Translations under genes and position numbers: made by a program
Shown here: one piece after another, positions 80-56,280 of the stretch
Numbering within the stretch: the stretch's first letter is position 1
How the letters are laid out: each line of letters begins with the position of its first letter
The notes under the pieces: generated by a model
What the model was told of the DNA's origin: nothing
The model's input: only the letters and a program-made list of their open reading frames with translations
Database searches by the model: none
Assembly (NCBI GenBank): GCA_944324455.1
Contig: CALUWJ010000011.1
Span: 1-56,441 of the forward strand
Reading direction: 5' to 3'
DNA length: 56,441 bases
From: Candidatus Gastranaerophilales bacterium
GTDB lineage: Bacteria; Cyanobacteriota; Vampirovibrionia; Gastranaerophilales; Gastranaerophilaceae

Positions 80-348
80 GGCTTACGCTTTTTTCCGGCT
101 GTGGGTATTTCGGCTCCGTTTGGCTAAAGTCGCCAAACAGCCTCAATTATCCTACGCCGGCTATCAATAGTTACGACCAAAACTCATCGTTTTGGTCTTC
201 ACTCTGGCTTACGCTTTTTTCCGGCTGTGGGTATTTCGGCTCCGTTTGGCTAAAGTCGCCAAACAGCCTCAATTATCCTACGCCGGCTATCAATAGTTAC
301 GACCAAAACTCATCGTTTTGGTCTTCACTCTGGCTTACGCTTTTTTCC
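80..348. repeat. Tandem 126-bp intergenic repeat (two full units plus a 17-bp stub)
   Basis: Two consecutive, apparently identical 126-bp units lie at 80-205 and 206-331, followed by a partial third copy of 17 bp at 332-348 (GGCTTACGCTTTTTTCC). Each unit contains two inverted repeats: GTTTGGC/GCCAAAC around a 7-nt loop and ACCAAAAC/GTTTTGGT around a 5-nt loop, so single-stranded forms would fold. 126 is a multiple of three, which leaves an open frame through both units, but the frame has no ribosome site or recognisable product. The stub overlaps the last codons and stop of the minus-strand gene ending at 335. A related motif occurs at 56,328-56,362. The first 79 bases show nothing else I recognise. 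Confidence 0.93.
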
Positions 349-1096
349 TAATAAAGTCTAATATTGCATTTATAAATGTCAAAGGATGAGTTGGACATCC
401 AGGTATATATAAATCGATTTTGTATTTATCAATAAATTCCCTGTTTAATTCTTGAGAATCTTGGAAAATTCCACCTGAAATAGCACAAGCTCCGCACAAA
501 ACCACAACTTTTGGATCAGGACAAGATTTATAGCAATCTTCCAGTGCATAAGCCATATTTTTAGAAATTGGACCTGTAACCACAATACCGTCCGCATGGC
601 GAGCTGAAGCCACAAAATCAATTCCAAATCTGCCCATATCAAAGTTAGCATTTCCTGCAGCATTTAATTCCATTTCGCAACCATTACAACCGCCTGCTGA
701 AACTTGACGGAATTTTATTGAACGGTTAAAAATAGAATATATTTCTTTTCTTACTTCAATTGCTTTTTTATGATATTCTTCAGGGGTAATTTCTTCAGTA
801 ATAATCAATTTTTCCCTTTTATCCGCCCCTAATTTATAATAATTTGTAAAATCAATTGCATGGTTTTCGCAAAATCTTTTGCATTTACCACACAAAGTGC
901 ATTTTCCTAAATCAATTGATAAAGGATTAACATTCAAAGCGCCTGTTGGGCAAATTTTAGCGCATTCACCACAATTATTACATTTTGAATTATCAAGTTT
1001 TGGCAATCCTCTAAATGCTGTTCTCATTGGAGCATTTTGAATATCAGGTATAAACTGATTTTTTTGCCATAATTTCATTTTTAAAGTATCAAACAT
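335..1096 (-). CDS. Hydrogenase-4/Ehr-type small subunit with N-terminal 2x[4Fe-4S] ferredoxin domain (NuoB/HycG family)
   Basis: 253 residues. Residues 39-76 carry two [4Fe-4S] ferredoxin motifs (C39, C42, C45, C49 and C66, C69, C72, C76), as in HycF/HyfH/NuoI. Residues 130-250 are a NuoB/HycG-type electron-transfer subunit with C137 and C140 (GGCNGCEME), CGACA at 201-205 and GCP at 233-235, the expected ligands of the proximal [4Fe-4S] cluster. So two subunits that are separate in Hyf/Hyc are fused here, as I recall for Ehr small subunits. It is the last gene of a six-gene minus-strand operon, 17 bp after the large subunit. It should sit on the cytoplasmic peripheral arm and pass electrons between a soluble donor or acceptor and the membrane arm. 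The C-terminal residues KKA and the stop are encoded within a repeat stub. Confidence 0.9.
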   Translation of the reverse strand: MFDTLKMKLWQKNQFIPDIQNAPMRTAFRGLPKLDNSKCNNCGECAKICPTGALNVNPLSIDLGKCTLCGKCKRFCENHAIDFTNYYKLGADKREKLIITEEITPEEYHKKAIEVRKEIYSIFNRSIKFRQVSAGGCNGCEMELNAAGNANFDMGRFGIDFVASARHADGIVVTGPISKNMAYALEDCYKSCPDPKVVVLCGACAISGGIFQDSQELNREFIDKYKIDLYIPGCPTHPLTFINAILDFIRKKA

Positions 1097-1113
1097 AATA
1101 TTTTTTCCTTAAA

Positions 1114-2565
1114 TTATAAATCAAATCCACAATATGAAAGGTCAAAACCTTTATTACATAATGGAAAATCAGATATTCCATTTCCTCTAACCGCCATTGA
1201 TAAACCATACCAATTATTAAAAGACGGATCTTTGATTTTATATCTGGTTAATTTTCCTGTTTCATCAGTTGTTGCAATATGAACCAATTCACCTCTCCAG
1301 CTTTCAACAACGCTTAGCGCAAAAGAGTTTGGAATTAAATTATTAGCTTCAACTTTGATTTCTTCATCTTTATAATTTTCTAATTTAGCAAGTAATTTTT
1401 TAATATATGAAATTGATTCAATTGTTTCTTTGTATCTTATTCTAAAACGAGAATATGCGTCATTTGTGGCTTTAAACTGTTTGCGTTCAAAATCTTTATA
1501 AAATTCATCACAAAAATCAAAGCGAGAATCAAGTTCTAAACCGCAAGCTCGGCCCATTAAGCCAACCAGATTTAATTCTTGAGCGGTTTCTCTACTGACT
1601 ATACCTGTTTTTTCAAATCTTGACATAACTGTTGCACTCTTAAATACAGCTTGTGTCATTTTGTTTACAGTCTTTTTAACGCCATCTAAAACGCTAATTA
1701 TTTTATCTGACATTTCTTTATCTATATCAAAATTTACACCGCCAACAGAAATTAAACCTCTGCCAAATCTGCTTCCTGAAATTTCAAGCATGGTATTAAT
1801 AACCAATGTTCTTGTAACAGCATAAACTTCTTTACCCATTAAATAAGCAATATCACCTAAAATTGCGCCCATATCACCAATATGAATTGCACATCTTTCC
1901 ATTTCAAGAGCTATTCTTCTAATTAACTTCGCTTTAGTTGAAATTTTTGTATCGGATAATTCTTCCATAATTTGTGAATAAGCCATATTATAAGCTATTA
2001 CGCTATCACCACAAATAGATTCAGCTAATTGATTGGATGGATTTTTAACCATTAAATCTTCACATCCTCTATGTTGGTAACCAAGCATAATTTCAAGATT
2101 ATAGACTTTTTCACCTTGACACATAAATCTAAAATGCCCCGGTTCAATTACACCAGCATGGATTGGTCCAACTGCAACTTGGTGAGCAGCCTCACCATCC
2201 ATTTCAAAAAATTTATAATCATCTTGATTTTTTCTAACAGGTTTTAGCCAAGGATGCCCTTTAGGTTCAATATTAAATTGTTCATAAAATTCACGCTCAA
2301 ACATGTGATATTGAGGATTGTCTTTTGTAATTGATTCATATTCTCTTACGCTTTTATTTATTAAAGATGAAGTTAATAAAATTTCACCTTTTTCATCGTC
2401 TGCTAAAGCAACAAACAATTTAATATTTTCACCCCAATCACATCCAAAAAATGATAATGGTCTTAGATTACTTGCTGCAAGTCTTGCTCTTAGCGCATCT
2501 AATTCAAGCGTTGGAATATCTAAAAGATTAACTCTTTGATTATTTTTTATAGTATAGTAATTCAT
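1114..2565 (-). CDS. Large subunit of a hydrogenase-4-related (Ehr-like) complex, NuoC-NuoD/HycE family, NiFe ligands not conserved
   Basis: 483 residues. Residues 1-115 are a NuoC-like (30 kDa) domain ending in GHPWLKP. Residues 125-483 are NuoD/HycE-like, with HRG at 165-167. True NiFe enzymes have RxCGxC and DPCxxC. Here the first motif reads ESICGDS (C185 kept, second Cys replaced by S188, following His replaced by Y192). The second reads DPSFNN (446-451), with S448 and N451 where cysteines belong. A NiFe centre therefore looks impossible, and the protein fits Ehr-type large subunits. The C-terminus (LSYCGFDL) resembles HyfG-type relatives. The gene lies between the HyfF-like and small-subunit genes of the same operon. 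The in vivo substrate is unknown. Confidence 0.9.
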   Translation of the reverse strand: MNYYTIKNNQRVNLLDIPTLELDALRARLAASNLRPLSFFGCDWGENIKLFVALADDEKGEILLTSSLINKSVREYESITKDNPQYHMFEREFYEQFNIEPKGHPWLKPVRKNQDDYKFFEMDGEAAHQVAVGPIHAGVIEPGHFRFMCQGEKVYNLEIMLGYQHRGCEDLMVKNPSNQLAESICGDSVIAYNMAYSQIMEELSDTKISTKAKLIRRIALEMERCAIHIGDMGAILGDIAYLMGKEVYAVTRTLVINTMLEISGSRFGRGLISVGGVNFDIDKEMSDKIISVLDGVKKTVNKMTQAVFKSATVMSRFEKTGIVSRETAQELNLVGLMGRACGLELDSRFDFCDEFYKDFERKQFKATNDAYSRFRIRYKETIESISYIKKLLAKLENYKDEEIKVEANNLIPNSFALSVVESWRGELVHIATTDETGKLTRYKIKDPSFNNWYGLSMAVRGNGISDFPLCNKGFDLSYCGFDL

Positions 2566-2586
2566 TTTATCTCCTAACCCTTTTAA

Positions 2587-4020
2587 TTAACCTACAAGGG
2601 TATTTCTAATAATTACATCTAAAAATTTTGGTATATATACTCCCAAAACAAAAGCTAAAGTCAAAAGCGCAACTTGCGGAATATACATTGCTTTTGAAAT
2701 TTTTGTAATATTTTTCTTTGCAAGTTCAAATTTTTCTTCACTTTTTTTGCCATATACCATTTTTATTACTACTCTTGCCATACCAAACAGAACAACTGTC
2801 AACAAGAACAAGAATAAAGCACATAATATATAATGTTTTTGAATTAAAAATGCTTTCACAACCAAAAATTCACTCAAAAACAACATACTTGGAGGAAAAG
2901 CACAAATTCCCAGGAATGAAACAATCCATAACCAAGCTGTTTTTTTATCAATTAGCCCTAAAGAACGAATTGATTTAATTCTTTTTGTTTCAAAAAGTTC
3001 TAAAACATTTCCTGATGTAAGAAAGAAAGAAGCTTTAATTAAAGAGTGACCTATTAAATGAATAATTAAAGCAAAATAAGCAATTCCGCCTAATGCAGTT
3101 GCAATTGCTAAAATACCCATATTTTCAATTGATGAATAAGCAAGCATTCTTTTGTAGTTTGTTGTGTGATATAAAAATACTGCTGTTACAAATAATGATA
3201 AAAAGCCCATTATTAAAAGCATTGTTCTTGCAAAAATAACACAGTTGGCACAAAGCATAATTTTATATACATTTAAAATAACTAAAAAAGCACAATTTAA
3301 TAATGTTGCAGATAATAGCGCTGAAATCGGACTTGGAGCTTCAGAGTGTGCGTCAGGAAGCCAAAAATGAACAGGCGCAAGACCCATTTTTGTTCCAAGA
3401 CCAAACAAAATAAACACAAAAGAAACATTCAACCAAAAATGACTGAAAGATTTTGCGTTGTTCATTAAATCAGCATAATTTAAGCTATTTACATCACCTG
3501 TTGCAATTGTTAAAAGGATTATTCCAACAAACGCTAAAGCAATACCGATTGAACAAATAAACACATATTTCCAAGCAGCTTCAATAGAATGTTTTGTTTT
3601 ATTGAAATAAATTAAATATGCACTTGCTAAGGTTGTGCCTTCAATAAAAATCCAAGCTAGACCAAGATTATTAGATAAAATGCCGCCTGTCATTGAAAAG
3701 ACGAATACCAATATCATCACACTGTATAACATCATTTTTTTAGCAGGAAATTCTTTTGCTAAATTTTTGCTATAACCGCAATTATAAATTGAAACTGCAA
3801 GAAATACTATTGATAATACAAGATAAAATACAATGTTCGATGAACCTAAATTAAAATAATTGCTATCATTCAATAGTTCAGGTTTAACAAAATATGCAAC
3901 TCCCAAAAGAGAATGTATAAGTGCATACAAAGTTATTAATATATTATTTAAAGTATTGTTTTTAAAGAAAAATAATACCAAACAAAAAACTATAGGTAAT
4001 ATTAAAACTAAACTAATCAT
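2587..4020 (-). CDS. hyfF: HyfF-like proton-pumping membrane subunit (NuoN/Mrp antiporter family)
   Basis: About 477 residues of almost continuous hydrophobic helices. Visible family motifs are GLAPVHFWLPDAHSEAPSP (about residue 215) and YKRMLAYSSIENMG (about 290), the signature of antiporter-like subunits of complex I and group 4 hydrogenases. They carry the lysine and histidine proton path. I prefer the ATG at 4020; an in-frame GTG three codons upstream (4029) sits only 2 nt from a possible AAAGGA ribosome site, whereas the ATG is 11 nt from it. Either start overlaps the end of the HyfE-like gene, implying translational coupling. It is one of two antiporter-like subunits in this operon. Confidence 0.88.
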   Translation of the reverse strand: MISLVLILPIVFCLVLFFFKNNTLNNILITLYALIHSLLGVAYFVKPELLNDSNYFNLGSSNIVFYLVLSIVFLAVSIYNCGYSKNLAKEFPAKKMMLYSVMILVFVFSMTGGILSNNLGLAWIFIEGTTLASAYLIYFNKTKHSIEAAWKYVFICSIGIALAFVGIILLTIATGDVNSLNYADLMNNAKSFSHFWLNVSFVFILFGLGTKMGLAPVHFWLPDAHSEAPSPISALLSATLLNCAFLVILNVYKIMLCANCVIFARTMLLIMGFLSLFVTAVFLYHTTNYKRMLAYSSIENMGILAIATALGGIAYFALIIHLIGHSLIKASFFLTSGNVLELFETKRIKSIRSLGLIDKKTAWLWIVSFLGICAFPPSMLFLSEFLVVKAFLIQKHYILCALFLFLLTVVLFGMARVVIKMVYGKKSEEKFELAKKNITKISKAMYIPQVALLTLAFVLGVYIPKFLDVIIRNTLVG

Positions 4021-4663
4021 TGTTTTCACTATCCTTTAAGTCTGATAAATGTGCTACTTCCATATCTCCAAGTTCTTTGTTAATTTGAGAAACAAACAAA
4101 CCTAAGATATAAATTGCAATAAATACATCCAGTAAAACGCCAATATTAACCAACATTGGCATTTCTTTTGCAACAGATAGCGATAATAAAAATATACCGT
4201 TTTCCATTGTAATAAATTCAATAACATTTGATAAAATCTTTTGTTTAATTGTAATAAGCCATAAACTTATTATTATTGTTGCTAAAGCAATTCCAAAACA
4301 CATCGGATTTATCATAGATAATGATGGAATATCTAAAACAGAAATCATAAAACCGCCGAATAATATTGCGCTTGAAATAAATAAACAATAAAAATGAGCA
4401 ATATTAGCGTCGGTATCTCTTTTTAAATGCGTCTTTTTTAAAACTTTATTTAAAAACAAAGGAATTAAAATTGCTTTAACAAGCAATGTTTCGATTGTCA
4501 AAAATAAAATAATATACCAAGGCATATGAGAAAAACCTGCTGCACAAATTAAAAACAGCAATATACCTTGTGCAATTAATGTATCAACATGTGCTTTTAA
4601 TCTACTTGTTGTAGATAAATAGAGCATTGTTAAACCAAATAATATTATAAAGCCGTTAACCAT
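4013..4663 (-). CDS. hyfE: HyfE-like membrane subunit (NuoK-like)
   Basis: 216 residues, about six predicted membrane helices, and a short charged C-terminal tail (QINKELGDMEVAHLSDLKD). Length and position between HyfC-like and HyfF-like genes match HyfE, a NuoK-related subunit that carries membrane acidic residues in the proton path. The start ATG lies 2 bp after the stop of the HyfC-like gene, and the stop overlaps the next start, so the operon is translationally coupled. Primary sequence alone is weakly diagnostic for this family, and the call leans on operon order. Confidence 0.78.
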   Translation of the reverse strand: MVNGFIILFGLTMLYLSTTSRLKAHVDTLIAQGILLFLICAAGFSHMPWYIILFLTIETLLVKAILIPLFLNKVLKKTHLKRDTDANIAHFYCLFISSAILFGGFMISVLDIPSLSMINPMCFGIALATIIISLWLITIKQKILSNVIEFITMENGIFLLSLSVAKEMPMLVNIGVLLDVFIAIYILGLFVSQINKELGDMEVAHLSDLKDSENND

Positions 4664-4665
4664 TT

Positions 4666-5595
4666 TTATACTCCATACATCTTTACAGCTACTAAAGAAG
4701 CAATAACAAGGGCAAATGAACTCATAACAAATACAAATTCAAATACGTGGCTCATTCTTAATCTTGCTATTCCTGATTCAATTATTCCAACTAATACAGA
4801 TATTACAAACATCATTAATAAAAATGCGATTATTGAAACCCCCATTCCTAAATTTGAAGGTAAAATCAAATTAGATATTAATGAAGCAAGTAAAAACATT
4901 TTCATATATGCACTCCAAGAAATAAGCGCTAATTCTGATGAACAATTATCTAATATCATAACTTCATGAATCATTGTTAATTCTAAGTGTGTTGCAGGGT
5001 CATCAACAGGAACTCTGCAACCTTCTGTTAAAAGCATTATTAATAGCGCTAATACTGCAAAAATAACAATTAAATAGCCAATACTTCCTGCATTTTGAAT
5101 GACTAAAGCTAAACTATCAAATGTGTATATTTTGCATAACGCCATTATTGAAGCTATAACAATGAAAAATGCGGGTTCAATTATTGTTGTAAAACAAGCT
5201 TCGCGAGATGAACCCATCCCCTCAAAGCTGCTTGCTGTTTCCATTGCAGCTAAAAGAGAAATGAATTTAGATAAACCTAAAGCATAAGCAAAAATAATTA
5301 AACCGCCTTGGATATTTATTATTGTTGTTCCGCCGACAATCGGAATAAACAAACAAGCAAAAATTGTACAGGCAAAACCAACAATTGGAGAAAATCTAAA
5401 AATCCAAGTTGTTGTATTTGAAAAAGTTGAAGTTTTTTTCATTAATTTAATAAAATCATATAACGGCTGAAAAACACTTGCACCTTTTCTTCCTCCAAAA
5501 AATGCCTTTGTTTTTCTGATTATTCCTGTCATCAAAAAAGGAACAACTAATAAAAATAAAATATTTAAAATTTTCATTATTAATTCATCTGACAT
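4666..5595 (-). CDS. hyfC: HyfC-like membrane subunit (NuoH family)
   Basis: 309 residues with about eight hydrophobic helices. NuoH/HyfC motifs are visible: GRKGASVFQPLYDFIKLMKK near residue 35 (equivalent to the RxGP..QP..D..K loop), and the acidic loop EGCRVPVDDPATHLELTMIH near 191-210, which in complex I forms the link between the quinone or redox site and the membrane arm. The family anchors the peripheral arm to the membrane. The start lies 15 bp after the HyfB-like gene, and the operon order HyfB-HyfC-HyfE-HyfF is preserved. Confidence 0.9.
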   Translation of the reverse strand: MSDELIMKILNILFLLVVPFLMTGIIRKTKAFFGGRKGASVFQPLYDFIKLMKKTSTFSNTTTWIFRFSPIVGFACTIFACLFIPIVGGTTIINIQGGLIIFAYALGLSKFISLLAAMETASSFEGMGSSREACFTTIIEPAFFIVIASIMALCKIYTFDSLALVIQNAGSIGYLIVIFAVLALLIMLLTEGCRVPVDDPATHLELTMIHEVMILDNCSSELALISWSAYMKMFLLASLISNLILPSNLGMGVSIIAFLLMMFVISVLVGIIESGIARLRMSHVFEFVFVMSSFALVIASLVAVKMYGV

Positions 5596-5610
5596 AATCT
5601 GTTTCCTATG

Positions 5611-7581
5611 CTATCCTAAAATCAATGCGGCAATTAAAGCAATTGCCAAGAATATTAATCCTACACGAATATATTGTTGAATATCTCCGTTTTGTATTTT
5701 TTCAAATTTAGATAAGAATTTTTCATCTAATTTTATTATCGGATTAATAACATAAACTTCTTCAATATCGTCAAATTCAGCCTCGTAATGTGCTTCTTTT
5801 GGGAATAATCCTTTTGCTTTTCTAACATCTGTATTTCTTTTAAATAATGGTTTTAAAATACTTGAAAAAGGACTAACGTAAGATGCTGCGCTGTATTGAA
5901 CTTTGCTTGTAAGTTTGTTATATCCGCAACCCCAAGTTGAATAGATTTGAGGAGTTTTAGAAATTATTTTTTTAATAATTAAAACAACAGTAATTAAACC
6001 AACAAGAATTAAAATATATTTTGAAACAGATGATAAAAATGCTATTGTTTCCCCTGCTTGCGGGTTTTCTATTAAAACTGATGCCGGTTTTAGGGCGTAT
6101 TGAAAAATATATTGAGGAAACAAACCAATTACAAAACAAGCCAAACCCAATATTCCCATTGGAATTAACATTGTTTTTGGACTGTCTGTTTCAACATTTT
6201 GCGCTTTTTCGCTTCTTGCAAGACCCAAGAAAGTTATGCTAATTGTTTTTGTAAAACATAATATTGCCATAGTTCCAACTAAAGCTAAAGCTGAAAAAGC
6301 AAATAATATTGCAATAAATACTCCAAAGTTATTTATTGCAAGAGCTTTAATAAAGCTTAAATAAATTAAAAATTCGCTCACAAAACCATTAAATGGAGGT
6401 AGAGCACAAATTGAAATGCCGCCAATTATAAAGCATAATGCTGTTGTTGGCATTTTTTTAATCAAACCACCCAAAACTTCCATATCTTTTGTATGAGTTT
6501 TAATATATACACTACCCGCACTCAAGAATAATAATTCTTTAAATATTGAGTGGTTTAAAATATGAACCAAGCTTCCGCACAAAGCTAAAAGCGCCATAGT
6601 CGGATGATTGAAATAAGCTGCCAACATATAAATTGAAATGCCGATACCTATAATTCCTATGTTTTCAATTGATGAATAAGCAAGCATTTTTTTGATATCT
6701 TTTTGAACTGTTGCATAAGCAATACCATAAAGTGCTGTTATTACAGTTAAAACTAAGATTGTATATATAATTGCAATTTTTGGAATTGAACTAAATTGAA
6801 TAGCTCTTAAAATCCCATAAATACCTGTTTTAATCATAACACCGCTCATCATAGCGCTAACATGAGATGGCGCTTGAGGGTGGGCATCAGGTAACCAGTT
6901 ATGGAAAGGAACAAAGCCTGCTTTTATTCCAAAACCGATAAATCCAAATACAAAAATTAAATTTGCTAAATTAACATTATCTTTTAGTGCTTCTTTAAAT
7001 GTCATAAAATCAAGACTCATAGCATTGGTTGAAAGCAATACAAAGAATAAAATTATAAATATTACAGATACATGCATATAAACAAGATATTTAATACCTG
7101 AATTTATAACTTCTTTTTTTTCGTGTTCAAATATAACAAGGAAAAATGATGATAAAGACATCAATTCCCAAATAATTAAAAACAATAAAGCATTTTGACA
7201 AGTTACAACTAAAAGCATTGAAGCCATTAACATGATTAAAAATATGCAATGAGCAGAAACATCTTTTCCTTTATTAATATAAGGAGCAAGATATCCGTTT
7301 GAATAAATAATTGCCAAAGTTGACATTATTGAAATAAAAATTACAAAAAATGCGCTTAAATTATCAAGCACAAATCTTACATTTTGAAATATTGAACCAA
7401 GATGTAAAATACATTCTTGATTTCCTGAAACTAGTGCATTAATTGCAGCGCTGACAGTGGCGCAGCTTGCTAAAAAAGCTCCGATTGATACACATTTTAA
7501 TTTTGCAGACTGATTTTTGAAAAACAAACTAATAATTGCACTGCAAACTAAAATTGCTATTCCTATAAAATAGTTTTCCAT
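5611..7581 (-). CDS. hyfB: HyfB-like proton-pumping membrane subunit (NuoL/Mrp antiporter family)
   Basis: 656 residues, mostly membrane helices, the first gene of the six-gene operon. Antiporter motifs are GFVPFHNWLPDAHPQAPSH (about 222-240) and VQKDIKKMLAYSSIENIG (about 289-306). The C-terminal 140 residues are more polar and include STWGCGYNKLTSKVQYSAAS, a sequence typical of HyfB/HycC-type subunits, before a final membrane helix. A good ribosome site (AGAGGAAAC) precedes the ATG. Upstream are 117 bp to coaE, where the operon promoter should lie. Together with the HyfF-like subunit it gives the complex two putative ion channels. Confidence 0.9.
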   Translation of the reverse strand: MENYFIGIAILVCSAIISLFFKNQSAKLKCVSIGAFLASCATVSAAINALVSGNQECILHLGSIFQNVRFVLDNLSAFFVIFISIMSTLAIIYSNGYLAPYINKGKDVSAHCIFLIMLMASMLLVVTCQNALLFLIIWELMSLSSFFLVIFEHEKKEVINSGIKYLVYMHVSVIFIILFFVLLSTNAMSLDFMTFKEALKDNVNLANLIFVFGFIGFGIKAGFVPFHNWLPDAHPQAPSHVSAMMSGVMIKTGIYGILRAIQFSSIPKIAIIYTILVLTVITALYGIAYATVQKDIKKMLAYSSIENIGIIGIGISIYMLAAYFNHPTMALLALCGSLVHILNHSIFKELLFLSAGSVYIKTHTKDMEVLGGLIKKMPTTALCFIIGGISICALPPFNGFVSEFLIYLSFIKALAINNFGVFIAILFAFSALALVGTMAILCFTKTISITFLGLARSEKAQNVETDSPKTMLIPMGILGLACFVIGLFPQYIFQYALKPASVLIENPQAGETIAFLSSVSKYILILVGLITVVLIIKKIISKTPQIYSTWGCGYNKLTSKVQYSAASYVSPFSSILKPLFKRNTDVRKAKGLFPKEAHYEAEFDDIEEVYVINPIIKLDEKFLSKFEKIQNGDIQQYIRVGLIFLAIALIAALILG

Positions 7582-47572: not shown

Positions 47573-48547
47573 ATGCAAAAAACAATACTTAATTTTCTTC
47601 AATTAACAAGAGCGTATTCATTAAGCGTTACCATAGCTTCTTGTTTAGTTATTTTGTCATATGCACACTATAGTGAAAATTTCAGCTGGTTTAATTTTAT
47701 TGTTATGACAATTGCACTCTGTTCTATTCATCTTGGTGCAAACCTGTTTGATGATTATATTGATGTAAAAACAAAATTAAAAAAAGGAATAGCCTTAAAA
47801 GACATATATTTTAATTCTTTTACCCCGAAAGCAAAATTAATTACCCAAGAAATATATTCTCTAAATCAGGTAAAAACAATATTAATGACATTGTTTGGTA
47901 TAGGATTGTTATCAGGATTATATTTTACTCTAACCACAGGATGGCAGGTTCTGATTTTTGCCCTAATAGGTGGAATTTTAACTCTATTTTACCCAATATC
48001 ATCAAGATACTATTTAGCTGAAATCACAATTGGTTTAATCTATGGTCCGTTAATAATAATGGGTGGATATTTTGCACTCAGCGGCGAATTTAACTCAAAT
48101 TTACTGTTATTCTCATTTGCAATATTTTTCTCAACCCTAGTTTTATTACATACCCACAACATTATGGATTGGGAATTTGATATAAAAGAAAACAAAAACA
48201 CTCTTGCAATTTTATGCAAAACAAAAGAAAACGCAATTAAAGCACTGAAATATATGATTGTTTTGTCATATGCAATAATTGTTCTTGGTGTTCTAAATCT
48301 AAATTTTAACCCCGATATGCTTTATGTATTTTTAACTTTACCAATTGCAACAAAGTTGCTAGAATCAATAAAAGATTATATAAATATAAAAGATGTTAAA
48401 TTTGAACCAAGATGGTATTGGGGATTTTTTGAAAATTGGAAAGAAATAAAATCTGAAAAAATTGATTTTTTTATGTTTAGATTTTATTTGGCAAGAAATT
48501 TTTCACTGTTTTTTGCCATATTTGCAAGTATCGGAGTCGTATCGTAG
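47573..48547 (+). CDS. UbiA-family prenyltransferase
   Basis: 324 residues, about nine membrane helices. The prenyl-diphosphate binding motif GANLFDDYIDVKTK (about 59-72, N-x-x-D-x-x-x-D) and the second aspartate motif MDWEFDIKENKNT (about 198) are present. These bind Mg and polyprenyl diphosphate. It may be MenA (menaquinone) or another UbiA-type enzyme such as digeranylgeranylglyceryl-phosphate synthase; no menaquinone gene is in the window, so I leave the substrate open. An ACGGAGCG ribosome site is present. A PEBP gene follows 16 bp later. Confidence 0.85.
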   Translation: MQKTILNFLQLTRAYSLSVTIASCLVILSYAHYSENFSWFNFIVMTIALCSIHLGANLFDDYIDVKTKLKKGIALKDIYFNSFTPKAKLITQEIYSLNQVKTILMTLFGIGLLSGLYFTLTTGWQVLIFALIGGILTLFYPISSRYYLAEITIGLIYGPLIIMGGYFALSGEFNSNLLLFSFAIFFSTLVLLHTHNIMDWEFDIKENKNTLAILCKTKENAIKALKYMIVLSYAIIVLGVLNLNFNPDMLYVFLTLPIATKLLESIKDYINIKDVKFEPRWYWGFFENWKEIKSEKIDFFMFRFYLARNFSLFFAIFASIGVVS

Positions 48548-54906: not shown

Positions 54907-56280
54907 ATGGCTGAAAAAATTGAAAGACAAAGACAAAAAGAACAAGACAGATTTGAAAGAAGAAAAAATTTCAATGCCGTAGAAGAAAATTTTACACCCG
55001 AACAAGCGCAAATTGAGGCGTCAAGATGTTTAAATTGCAAAAATGCAAGGTGTAAAACAGGTTGCCCTGTAAGCATTGATATTCCATCATTTATTAAAGA
55101 AGTTAAAGAAAATAATTTAGAAAAAGCAGGGGATATAATTCGCCAATCTTCAATGCTTCCTTCTGTTTGCGGCAGAGTTTGCCCGCAAGAAAAACAATGC
55201 GAAGGAAAGTGTATTTTAGGCATCAAAGGTGAACCTGTTGCAATTGGAGCATTGGAAAGATTTGTCGGCGATAATACAGCTGCTAAAAAAGTAGATATAA
55301 CTCCAAACGGCAAAAAAGTTGCAATAGTAGGATCAGGTTGTGCAGGTATGACAGCTGCTGCCGATCTTAGAAATGCGGGTTTTGAAGTATCTGTTTTTGA
55401 AGCATTGCATGAACTTGGCGGTGTTTTAAGATATGGTATTCCGCCATTCAGACTTCCAAGAAATGTTTTAGATAGAGAAATTAAAGCACTGGAAGAAATC
55501 GGAGTAAAATTCTTTAAAAATGTTGTAGTAGGTAAATCAATAACAATAAAACAACTTAAAGAAGAAGGTTATAGCGCTATATTTATTTGCTCAGGTGCCG
55601 GATTACCTAAAATGATGCACATTAAAGGTGAAAATTTGAACAACGTATATTCAGCTAATGAATTTCTAACAAGGGTTAATTTAATGCATGCACAAAGCCC
55701 TGATACACCAACACCATTGAAAGTAGGTAAAACTACTGCAATTATAGGCGGAGGTAACGTTGCAATGGATGCAGCAAGAACTGCTGTTAGAATAGGATAT
55801 GAAAAAGTTTATATTTTCTATAGAAGAACAGAAAAAGAACTACCTGCAAGACTTGAAGAAATTCGTCATGCTAAAGAAGAAGGAATTGAATTTAAGTTCT
55901 TACATGCACCTGTTGAAATTAATGGTGAAGATGGCTGGGTAAAATCAATGAAATTTGAACTAATGGAATTAGGTGAACCCGATGCATCAGGTCGTCAAAG
56001 ACCTGTTGGAACAGGCAAATTTGTTGATTATGACCTTGATAGCGTAATTGTTTCATTAGGAACAGGTCCAAACCCAATTATCCAACGCTCTGCAAATGAT
56101 GAAAATATTGACCTTGAAACAGATAATAAAGGCTATATCATTATCAATGAAAAAGGTGAAACATCTGTTCAAAACGTTTACGCCGGCGGTGACGTTGCTC
56201 CATTAGGTCCATCAACTGCAATTAACGCTATGGGAGCAGGCAAAAGAGCAGCAAAAACAATCATTGAAGCTCTTTCATAA
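54907..56280 (+). CDS. gltA: NADPH-dependent glutamate synthase-type oxidoreductase (GltA/GltD/NfnB family)
   Basis: 457 residues. The N-terminal Fe-S region has CLNCKNARCKTGCPV (about 42-56) and CGRVCPQEKQCEGKC (about 88-102). FAD binding is GSGCAGMTAAADL (about 141), and NADPH binding is IGGGNVAMDAAR (about 280). The end reads YAGGDVAPLGPSTAINAMGA. The family includes GltD, NfnB and related diaphorases; without a gltB or nfnA neighbour the partner is open. AAGG lies just before the ATG. Divergent from the HAD-ispF operon. A terminator follows. Confidence 0.9.
   Translation: MAEKIERQRQKEQDRFERRKNFNAVEENFTPEQAQIEASRCLNCKNARCKTGCPVSIDIPSFIKEVKENNLEKAGDIIRQSSMLPSVCGRVCPQEKQCEGKCILGIKGEPVAIGALERFVGDNTAAKKVDITPNGKKVAIVGSGCAGMTAAADLRNAGFEVSVFEALHELGGVLRYGIPPFRLPRNVLDREIKALEEIGVKFFKNVVVGKSITIKQLKEEGYSAIFICSGAGLPKMMHIKGENLNNVYSANEFLTRVNLMHAQSPDTPTPLKVGKTTAIIGGGNVAMDAARTAVRIGYEKVYIFYRRTEKELPARLEEIRHAKEEGIEFKFLHAPVEINGEDGWVKSMKFELMELGEPDASGRQRPVGTGKFVDYDLDSVIVSLGTGPNPIIQRSANDENIDLETDNKGYIIINEKGETSVQNVYAGGDVAPLGPSTAINAMGAGKRAAKTIIEALS

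Follow-up and report, generated by a model that had tools for sequence, protein, structure and literature searches.

The 56,441-nucleotide contig of a Candidatus Gastranaerophilales bacterium analysed here (the window) carries, on the minus strand at 335-7581, a six-gene operon for a membrane complex related to hydrogenase 4, the large subunit of which has lost its NiFe site. Alignment, phylogeny and gene content support the assignment of this complex to the Ehr (energy-converting hydrogenase-related) complexes as defined in published work (PMC6349859). Every genome of our survey in which no FeFe hydrogenase was detected carries Ehr, and this co-occurrence suggests that Ehr replaced the hydrogenase as the outlet for ferredoxin electrons.

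The complex itself is no discovery, because it was already published for Melainabacteria in 2013 and 2019. Di Rienzi et al. described a six-subunit NiFe-type membrane complex without hydrogen-binding motifs in gut and aquifer Melainabacteria in 2013 (PMC3787301), and Matheus Carnevali et al. named Ehr in this lineage in 2019 (PMC6349859). The window complex has the same six subunits and the same NiFe-type architecture without metal motifs, comes from the same lineage and shows no difference of kind. However, the 2013 description gives the gut genomes a complex I of 11 subunits (PMC3787301), and no complex I NuoD was found in the window's genome. Ehr complexes with no assigned function are also reported from Geobacter (PMC7894505), comammox Nitrospira, the M. 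tuberculosis complex and bacteria of the Candidate Phyla Radiation. An initial reading of the window from its letters alone (the sequence-only reading) had presented an ion-pumping enzyme with an open electron partner; the open question is real, but the instance is not new, the complex having been reported from this lineage before. New here are the exact residues, the loss of the distal cluster, of which the literature searched holds no earlier report, and the co-occurrence of Ehr with the absence of FeFe hydrogenase, for which we found no precedent in the open-access literature.

Six genes and a lost NiFe site

The six genes are intact and tightly spaced, with intergenic gaps of 2-21 nt and a single overlap, of 17 nt, between the HyfF-like and HyfE-like genes. 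Across the operon, Pfam and NCBIfam profiles matched HyfB, NuoH, HyfE, HyfF, Complex1_49kDa and Oxidored_q6 plus Fer4, and the gene order B-C-E-F-large-small is kept in 64 of 80 loci. The large subunit is one fused protein with a NuoC/HycE-N domain and a NuoD/HycE domain. The small subunit is also a fusion, joining an N-terminal HyfH-like 2[4Fe-4S] ferredoxin domain to a HyfI-like (NuoB/HycG-type) domain. The sequence-only reading was therefore right about a six-gene, hydrogenase-4-like complex but only partly right that its order is that of hydrogenase 4, because the small subunit is fused and counterparts of HyfA, HyfD and HyfJ are missing. Antiporter residues are conserved: E139 and E403 of the HyfB-like subunit align with, and are invariant across, HyfB and HycC, and E130, K214 and E387 of the HyfF-like subunit are invariant with HyfF. 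No recurring partner gene lies beside the operon, as the flanks vary among loci and the cassette travels alone.

The large subunit was aligned with HycE and HyfG from E. coli, with MbhL from P. furiosus and with Nqo4 and other proteins of complex I. The HycE NiFe ligands C241, C244, C531 and C534 align with C185, S188, S477 and G480, and the double CxxC motifs of hydrogenases are replaced by CGDS and SYCG. This agrees with the earlier claims that only C185 remains of the four cysteines and that S188 marks a lost one. The other two losses had been placed at S448 and N451, wrongly, because DPSFNN had been matched with DPCxxC; the correct positions are S477 and G480. S448 and N451 sit in a conserved, unrelated motif, DPSFNNW. 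Its aligned counterpart in HycE is RAATYANW, and HycE, HyfG, MbhL and Nqo4 all share the Asn at N451. The alignment revealed no set of four NiFe cysteines elsewhere in the protein.

Conservation had been proposed as a check on S188, S448 and N451, the last two of which are not ligand positions. Across 81 Gastranaerophilales copies, the S188 position holds Ser in 75, Thr in 5 and Met in 1, so that Ser or Thr is found in 80/81. All 80 copies extending that far have Ser at S477 and Gly at G480. At the C185 position, 77 of the 81 copies have Cys, and the nearest sister clades have V, S, A or G. Because it is replaced in those clades and in 4/81 copies, C185 is not a conserved remnant ligand. The large subunit stops three residues after G480 while HycE and HyfG continue, and the HycI-type C-terminal maturation extension is missing from it in the alignment with these two proteins.

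The window's genome (1.76 Mb, 99.4% complete) holds no second, intact large subunit that could use these membrane genes. Its only PF00346 protein is the one described here, and a profile search returned no PF00374 match. HypD was missing from 40/40 family genomes searched, the window's included, in line with the earlier remark that the window has no hyp maturation genes. The two CxxC motifs and the HycI-cleaved extension of a group 4 NiFe hydrogenase are thus both lacking. The retention of C185 and of the proton-relay glutamate E141 might recall a working hydrogenase with unusual metal ligands; with Ser(Thr), Ser and Gly at three of the four positions across the order, C185 itself replaced as noted and HypD missing, we consider this barely credible. 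Overall, the window complex shares homologues of HyfB, C, E, F, G and I and the large-subunit fold with E. coli Hyf/Hyc, but differs in having no NiFe ligands, no C-terminal maturation extension, no HyfA/D/J and no HypD.

In a maximum-likelihood tree of 23 large subunits, the window protein falls inside a 16-sequence clade without NiFe ligands (support 100/99), apart from HycE/HyfG, MbhL and NuoD. This position, together with the NiFe-less group-4-like large subunit, its single copy, the Mrp-antiporter-like subunits in the operon and the lack of HypD, supports the Ehr-type reading made from the sequence. Likeness to Geobacter Ehr is drawn from its published description and not from the tree or alignment. 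The Geobacter sulfurreducens complex (GSU0739-45, PMC7894505) comprises EhrA/C/L/S and hydrogenase-4-like membrane subunits, as in the window; unlike the window's genome, that of Geobacter encodes true hydrogenases and a formate dehydrogenase as well. The closest genomes are metagenome-assembled genomes of Candidatus Gastranaerophilales (Melainabacteria), several titled as animal-gut samples, with large subunits up to 96% identical.

The nearest relative found outside the order is a plasmid complex of Variovorax sp. PBL-E5 (L082 4731-12015; support 100/100). It has the same six genes, the fused small subunit and the same kind of C-terminus (NKSFDLSYCGNDL), but this soil betaproteobacterium has V in place of C185 and a second six-gene set close by. 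The two Ehr-like sets differ from each other and lie a few kb apart on one plasmid (L082:4731-12015, L097:770-7954), one with a ferredoxin domain and one without. Genes for a fused MFS/spermidine synthase and a universal stress protein occur near them, as in Paraburkholderia.

A structure model of the large subunit has an overall predicted template modelling score (pTM) of 0.84, and a fold search gave HycE (7z0s_E) as its top structural match, which confirms the HycE/NuoCD fold. The model is silent on any new site built from C185, C470 and C479, because much of the cavity lies in residues 108-163 and 468-483, where the predicted local distance difference test score (pLDDT) is below 50. In 2014, Soo et al. 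reported FeFe hydrogenases for Gastranaerophilales or, for the genomes from koala gut, Fe-only or NiFe hydrogenases (PMC4040986); the NiFe calls may correspond to the NiFe-less Ehr complex.

Cluster ligands and the former NiFe cavity

All three ligand sets for [4Fe-4S] clusters are complete in the window small subunit. Distal and medial sets were told apart by analogy with the ligands of clusters N6a and N6b in NuoI. The medial and proximal sets are complete in 78/78 small subunits of the order, while the distal set is complete in only 37/78, and several relatives have a small subunit without the ferredoxin domain.

These losses raise the idea of a degenerate complex that serves chiefly as an antiporter or channel for ions and in which redox input is small or has disappeared. 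Plasmid relatives in Allomeiothermus silvanus (L083:11260-12132) and Mycobacterium branderi (L095:7309-8103) go further, as they have lost all four proximal cysteines together with the NiFe ligands; they keep the antiporter-type complex and possibly have no terminal redox centre. However, the invariance of the medial and proximal ligands within the order indicates selection for electron transfer, and the window copy has every ligand. We therefore find this alternative quite unlikely for the window.

Pyrococcus furiosus MBS is likewise a NiFe-less, ferredoxin-fed relative of group 4 that keeps some ligand cysteines (PMC7684303). In MBS, the motif around two of the proximal cysteines is three residues shorter, one cysteine no longer ligates the cluster, and owing to this shorter motif polysulfide is reduced at the open site of the proximal cluster (PMC7684303). 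The window small subunit, in contrast, aligns with MbhJ without a gap at the CxxC loop (VSAGGCNGC versus VNSGSCNGC). A motif of full MBH length predicts four-cysteine coordination of the proximal cluster. The window protein also keeps E141, equivalent to MbhL E21, which is absent in MBS. A sulfane-sulfur reductase acting directly at an open proximal cluster is thus very unlikely here.

The complex could also be a ferredoxin:quinone oxidoreductase resembling cyanobacterial NDH-1, which has the same fold. However, both residues that hold the quinone head group in complex I, Nqo4 H38 and Y87, are replaced, by I140 and G186, and the tandem CysCys of cluster N2 is absent, the small subunit having a hydrogenase-like CxxC (C137, C140) instead. 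UbiA proteins occur in 60/60 genomes tested, despite published descriptions of these bacteria as quinone-less. One of them, MenA-like, is encoded in the window at 47573-48547 and scores far below the MenA cut-offs. The window's genome also has an isolated MenD-like protein (L138:5084-6838; 173 bits against a cut-off of 244), in whose surroundings no further men genes were recognised. No MenD above cut-off was found in 57 genomes, in which the futalosine route was not searched, and the stronger sub-cut-off matches do not track Ehr. Di Rienzi et al. count quinones among the missing carriers, though for one gut genome they consider vitamin K synthesis possible. We rejected quinone synthesis as a correlate of Ehr, UbiA being universal and the MenD-like matches below cut-off and not following Ehr, and we regard a quinone-reducing complex as highly unlikely. 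The cavity and cluster residues therefore disfavour both quinone and MBS-type chemistry and do not name the acceptor.

Ehr and the absence of FeFe hydrogenase

We surveyed 145 Gastranaerophilales genomes by profile searches, on which all gene absences rest, and used match class and the length of the open frame to separate Ehr from NuoD. Ehr is present in 41 genomes, 17 without FeFe hydrogenase and 24 with both. FeFe hydrogenase was found in all 104 Ehr-less genomes, and all 17 hydrogenase-less genomes carry Ehr (Fisher p 2.6e-11, uncorrected for kinship). The 17 belong to three genera: g1, which includes the window, g3 and g15. On a tree of VorABC (plus FabH/FabF where present) for 32 of the genomes, they form three separate supported clades, and the best tree implies at least 5 changes in hydrogenase presence. 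The members of g1 and g15 that lack Ehr, G084 and G109 respectively, retain the hydrogenase. The HydB-type PF01512 is absent from 17/17 hydrogenase-less genomes.

The change extends to the enzymes that reduce ferredoxin. In 16/17 hydrogenase-less genomes, the ~1180-aa PFOR is replaced by another 2-oxoacid:ferredoxin oxidoreductase, which in the window's genome is a three-gene set; its alpha subunit was found in 0/15 hydrogenase-bearing genomes tested. With 2-oxoacid:ferredoxin oxidoreductases kept and hydrogenase lost, ferredoxin must still be reduced while its usual outlet is gone. No hydrogenase was detected in the window's genome. Rnf was rejected as an outlet, as no full RnfC was found, only weak matches to its cluster-binding part. 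The alpha subunit of the three-gene oxidoreductase (L101:9072-11515) is 85-86% identical between the window's genus and g3 and g15, and the VOR alpha paralogue only 59-61% across the same genera; the three-gene set is possibly horizontally transferred or strongly constrained.

A complex of Ehr with formate dehydrogenase has been suggested for Margulisbacteria and Saganbacteria (PMC6349859), and Geobacter Ehr proteins increase with formate (PMC7894505). In this family, however, the molybdopterin oxidoreductase PF00384 is missing from 60/60 genomes, including the window's, which excludes such a partnership short of a formate dehydrogenase of another fold. We therefore give this alternative next to no weight.

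We propose that Ehr is an ion-pumping ferredoxin oxidase standing in for the FeFe hydrogenase, a reading whose direction, pumping, donor and sink role we infer and whose chances we judge to be evenly poised. The 2-oxoacid:ferredoxin oxidoreductases would reduce ferredoxin, from which electrons would enter the small subunit at its ferredoxin domain. They would then move from the distal to the medial and proximal [4Fe-4S] clusters and on into the large subunit, in whose former NiFe cavity they would reduce a small acceptor, neither H+ nor quinone. The energy released could drive export of H+ or Na+ through the HyfB, HyfF and HyfC subunits, and Ehr would replace the lost FeFe hydrogenase as ferredoxin sink in this order. 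This proposal is supported by the NiFe-less clade, the ligand loss, the three-cluster wire, the ion-pump residues, the co-occurrence and the kept oxidoreductases. Further support comes from the lack of a formate dehydrogenase, a full RnfC and a conserved neighbour gene, and from the replaced quinone residues. More tentatively, such a respiratory pump, its acceptor being neither H+ nor quinone, may have let whole lineages of gut Gastranaerophilales drop FeFe hydrogenase, and H2 formation with it, about three times or more, along with the change of oxidoreductase.

Several observations weigh against this proposal. About half of the relatives are unable to form the distal cluster, a finding that would be strange if the complex were a simple ferredoxin oxidase. 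The 24 genomes with both Ehr and FeFe hydrogenase mean that Ehr is not merely a substitute. A kinship-aware test yielded 3 independent pairs on supported branches; none of them ran against the pattern, but their number is too small to reach significance. The co-occurrence is uninformative on direction and acceptor.

The complex could also run the other way, a H+ or Na+ gradient driving ferredoxin reduction by a donor of higher potential; Di Rienzi et al. suggested this direction for gut Melainabacteria (PMC3787301). Group 4 complexes are in principle reversible, and the genomes holding both enzymes would fit this direction. However, reverse operation was meant to feed FeFe hydrogenase and nitrogenase, yet all hydrogenase-less genomes keep Ehr, and reduced ferredoxin is already supplied by the 2-oxoacid:ferredoxin oxidoreductases. 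We consider it unlikely.

The substrate of Ehr has been a standing question since these complexes were named. In genomes such as the window's, where Ehr is present but hydrogenase, formate dehydrogenase and complex I were not detected, the usual partners are gone. The search is narrower there, as reduced ferredoxin needs some outlet. If Ehr is indeed the ferredoxin sink, gut Melainabacteria of these genera would make no H2, contrary to what has been assumed.

Features of the operon and other genes of the window

Genes and key residues of the Ehr operon, with positions in the window.
Feature	Position	Strand	Basis or remark
HyfB-like antiporter subunit, 656 aa, ~15 transmembrane segments, first gene of operon	5611..7581	-	NCBIfam hydrogenase 4 subunit B, 541 bits
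HyfC/NuoH-like membrane anchor, 309 aa	4666..5595	-	Pfam NADHdh, 108.8 bits
HyfE-like membrane subunit, 216 aa	4013..4663	-	NCBIfam PRK11492 hydrogenase 4 membrane subunit, E 8e-16, below cut-off
HyfF-like antiporter subunit, 480 aa, GTG start	2587..4029	-	NCBIfam hydrogenase 4 subunit F, 309.8 bits
EhrL-type large subunit, 483 aa, without NiFe site	1114..2565	-	Complex1_49kDa and Complex1_30kDa, alignment, tree, fold
I140-E141	2143..2148	-	I140 replaces Nqo4 H38 (quinone His); E141 keeps MbhL E21 (hydrogenase proton-relay Glu)
C185, NiFe ligand position 1, sole Cys retained	2011..2013	-	aligned to HycE C241, MbhL C68
S188, NiFe ligand position 2	2002..2004	-	aligned to HycE C244, MbhL C71
S477, NiFe ligand position 3	1135..1137	-	aligned to HycE C531
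G480, NiFe ligand position 4	1126..1128	-	aligned to HycE C534
EhrS-type small subunit, 253 aa	335..1096	-	Fer4 and Oxidored_q6, cysteine counts, alignment with MbhJ, HycG, NuoB
Cluster ligands of small subunit	395..982	-	distal C39, C42, C45, C76; medial C49, C66, C69, C72; proximal C137, C140, C204, C234

Just 3' of the small-subunit gene, at window positions 80-331, lies a perfect 126-nt tandem duplication. It had no exact match in the other loci compared, the window's own copy excepted. Near the other end of the window, and with no adjoining NfnA-like gene within it, a gene at 54907-56280 encodes a GltA/NfnB-like NADPH-dependent flavoprotein that scores above the TIGR01316 cut-off.

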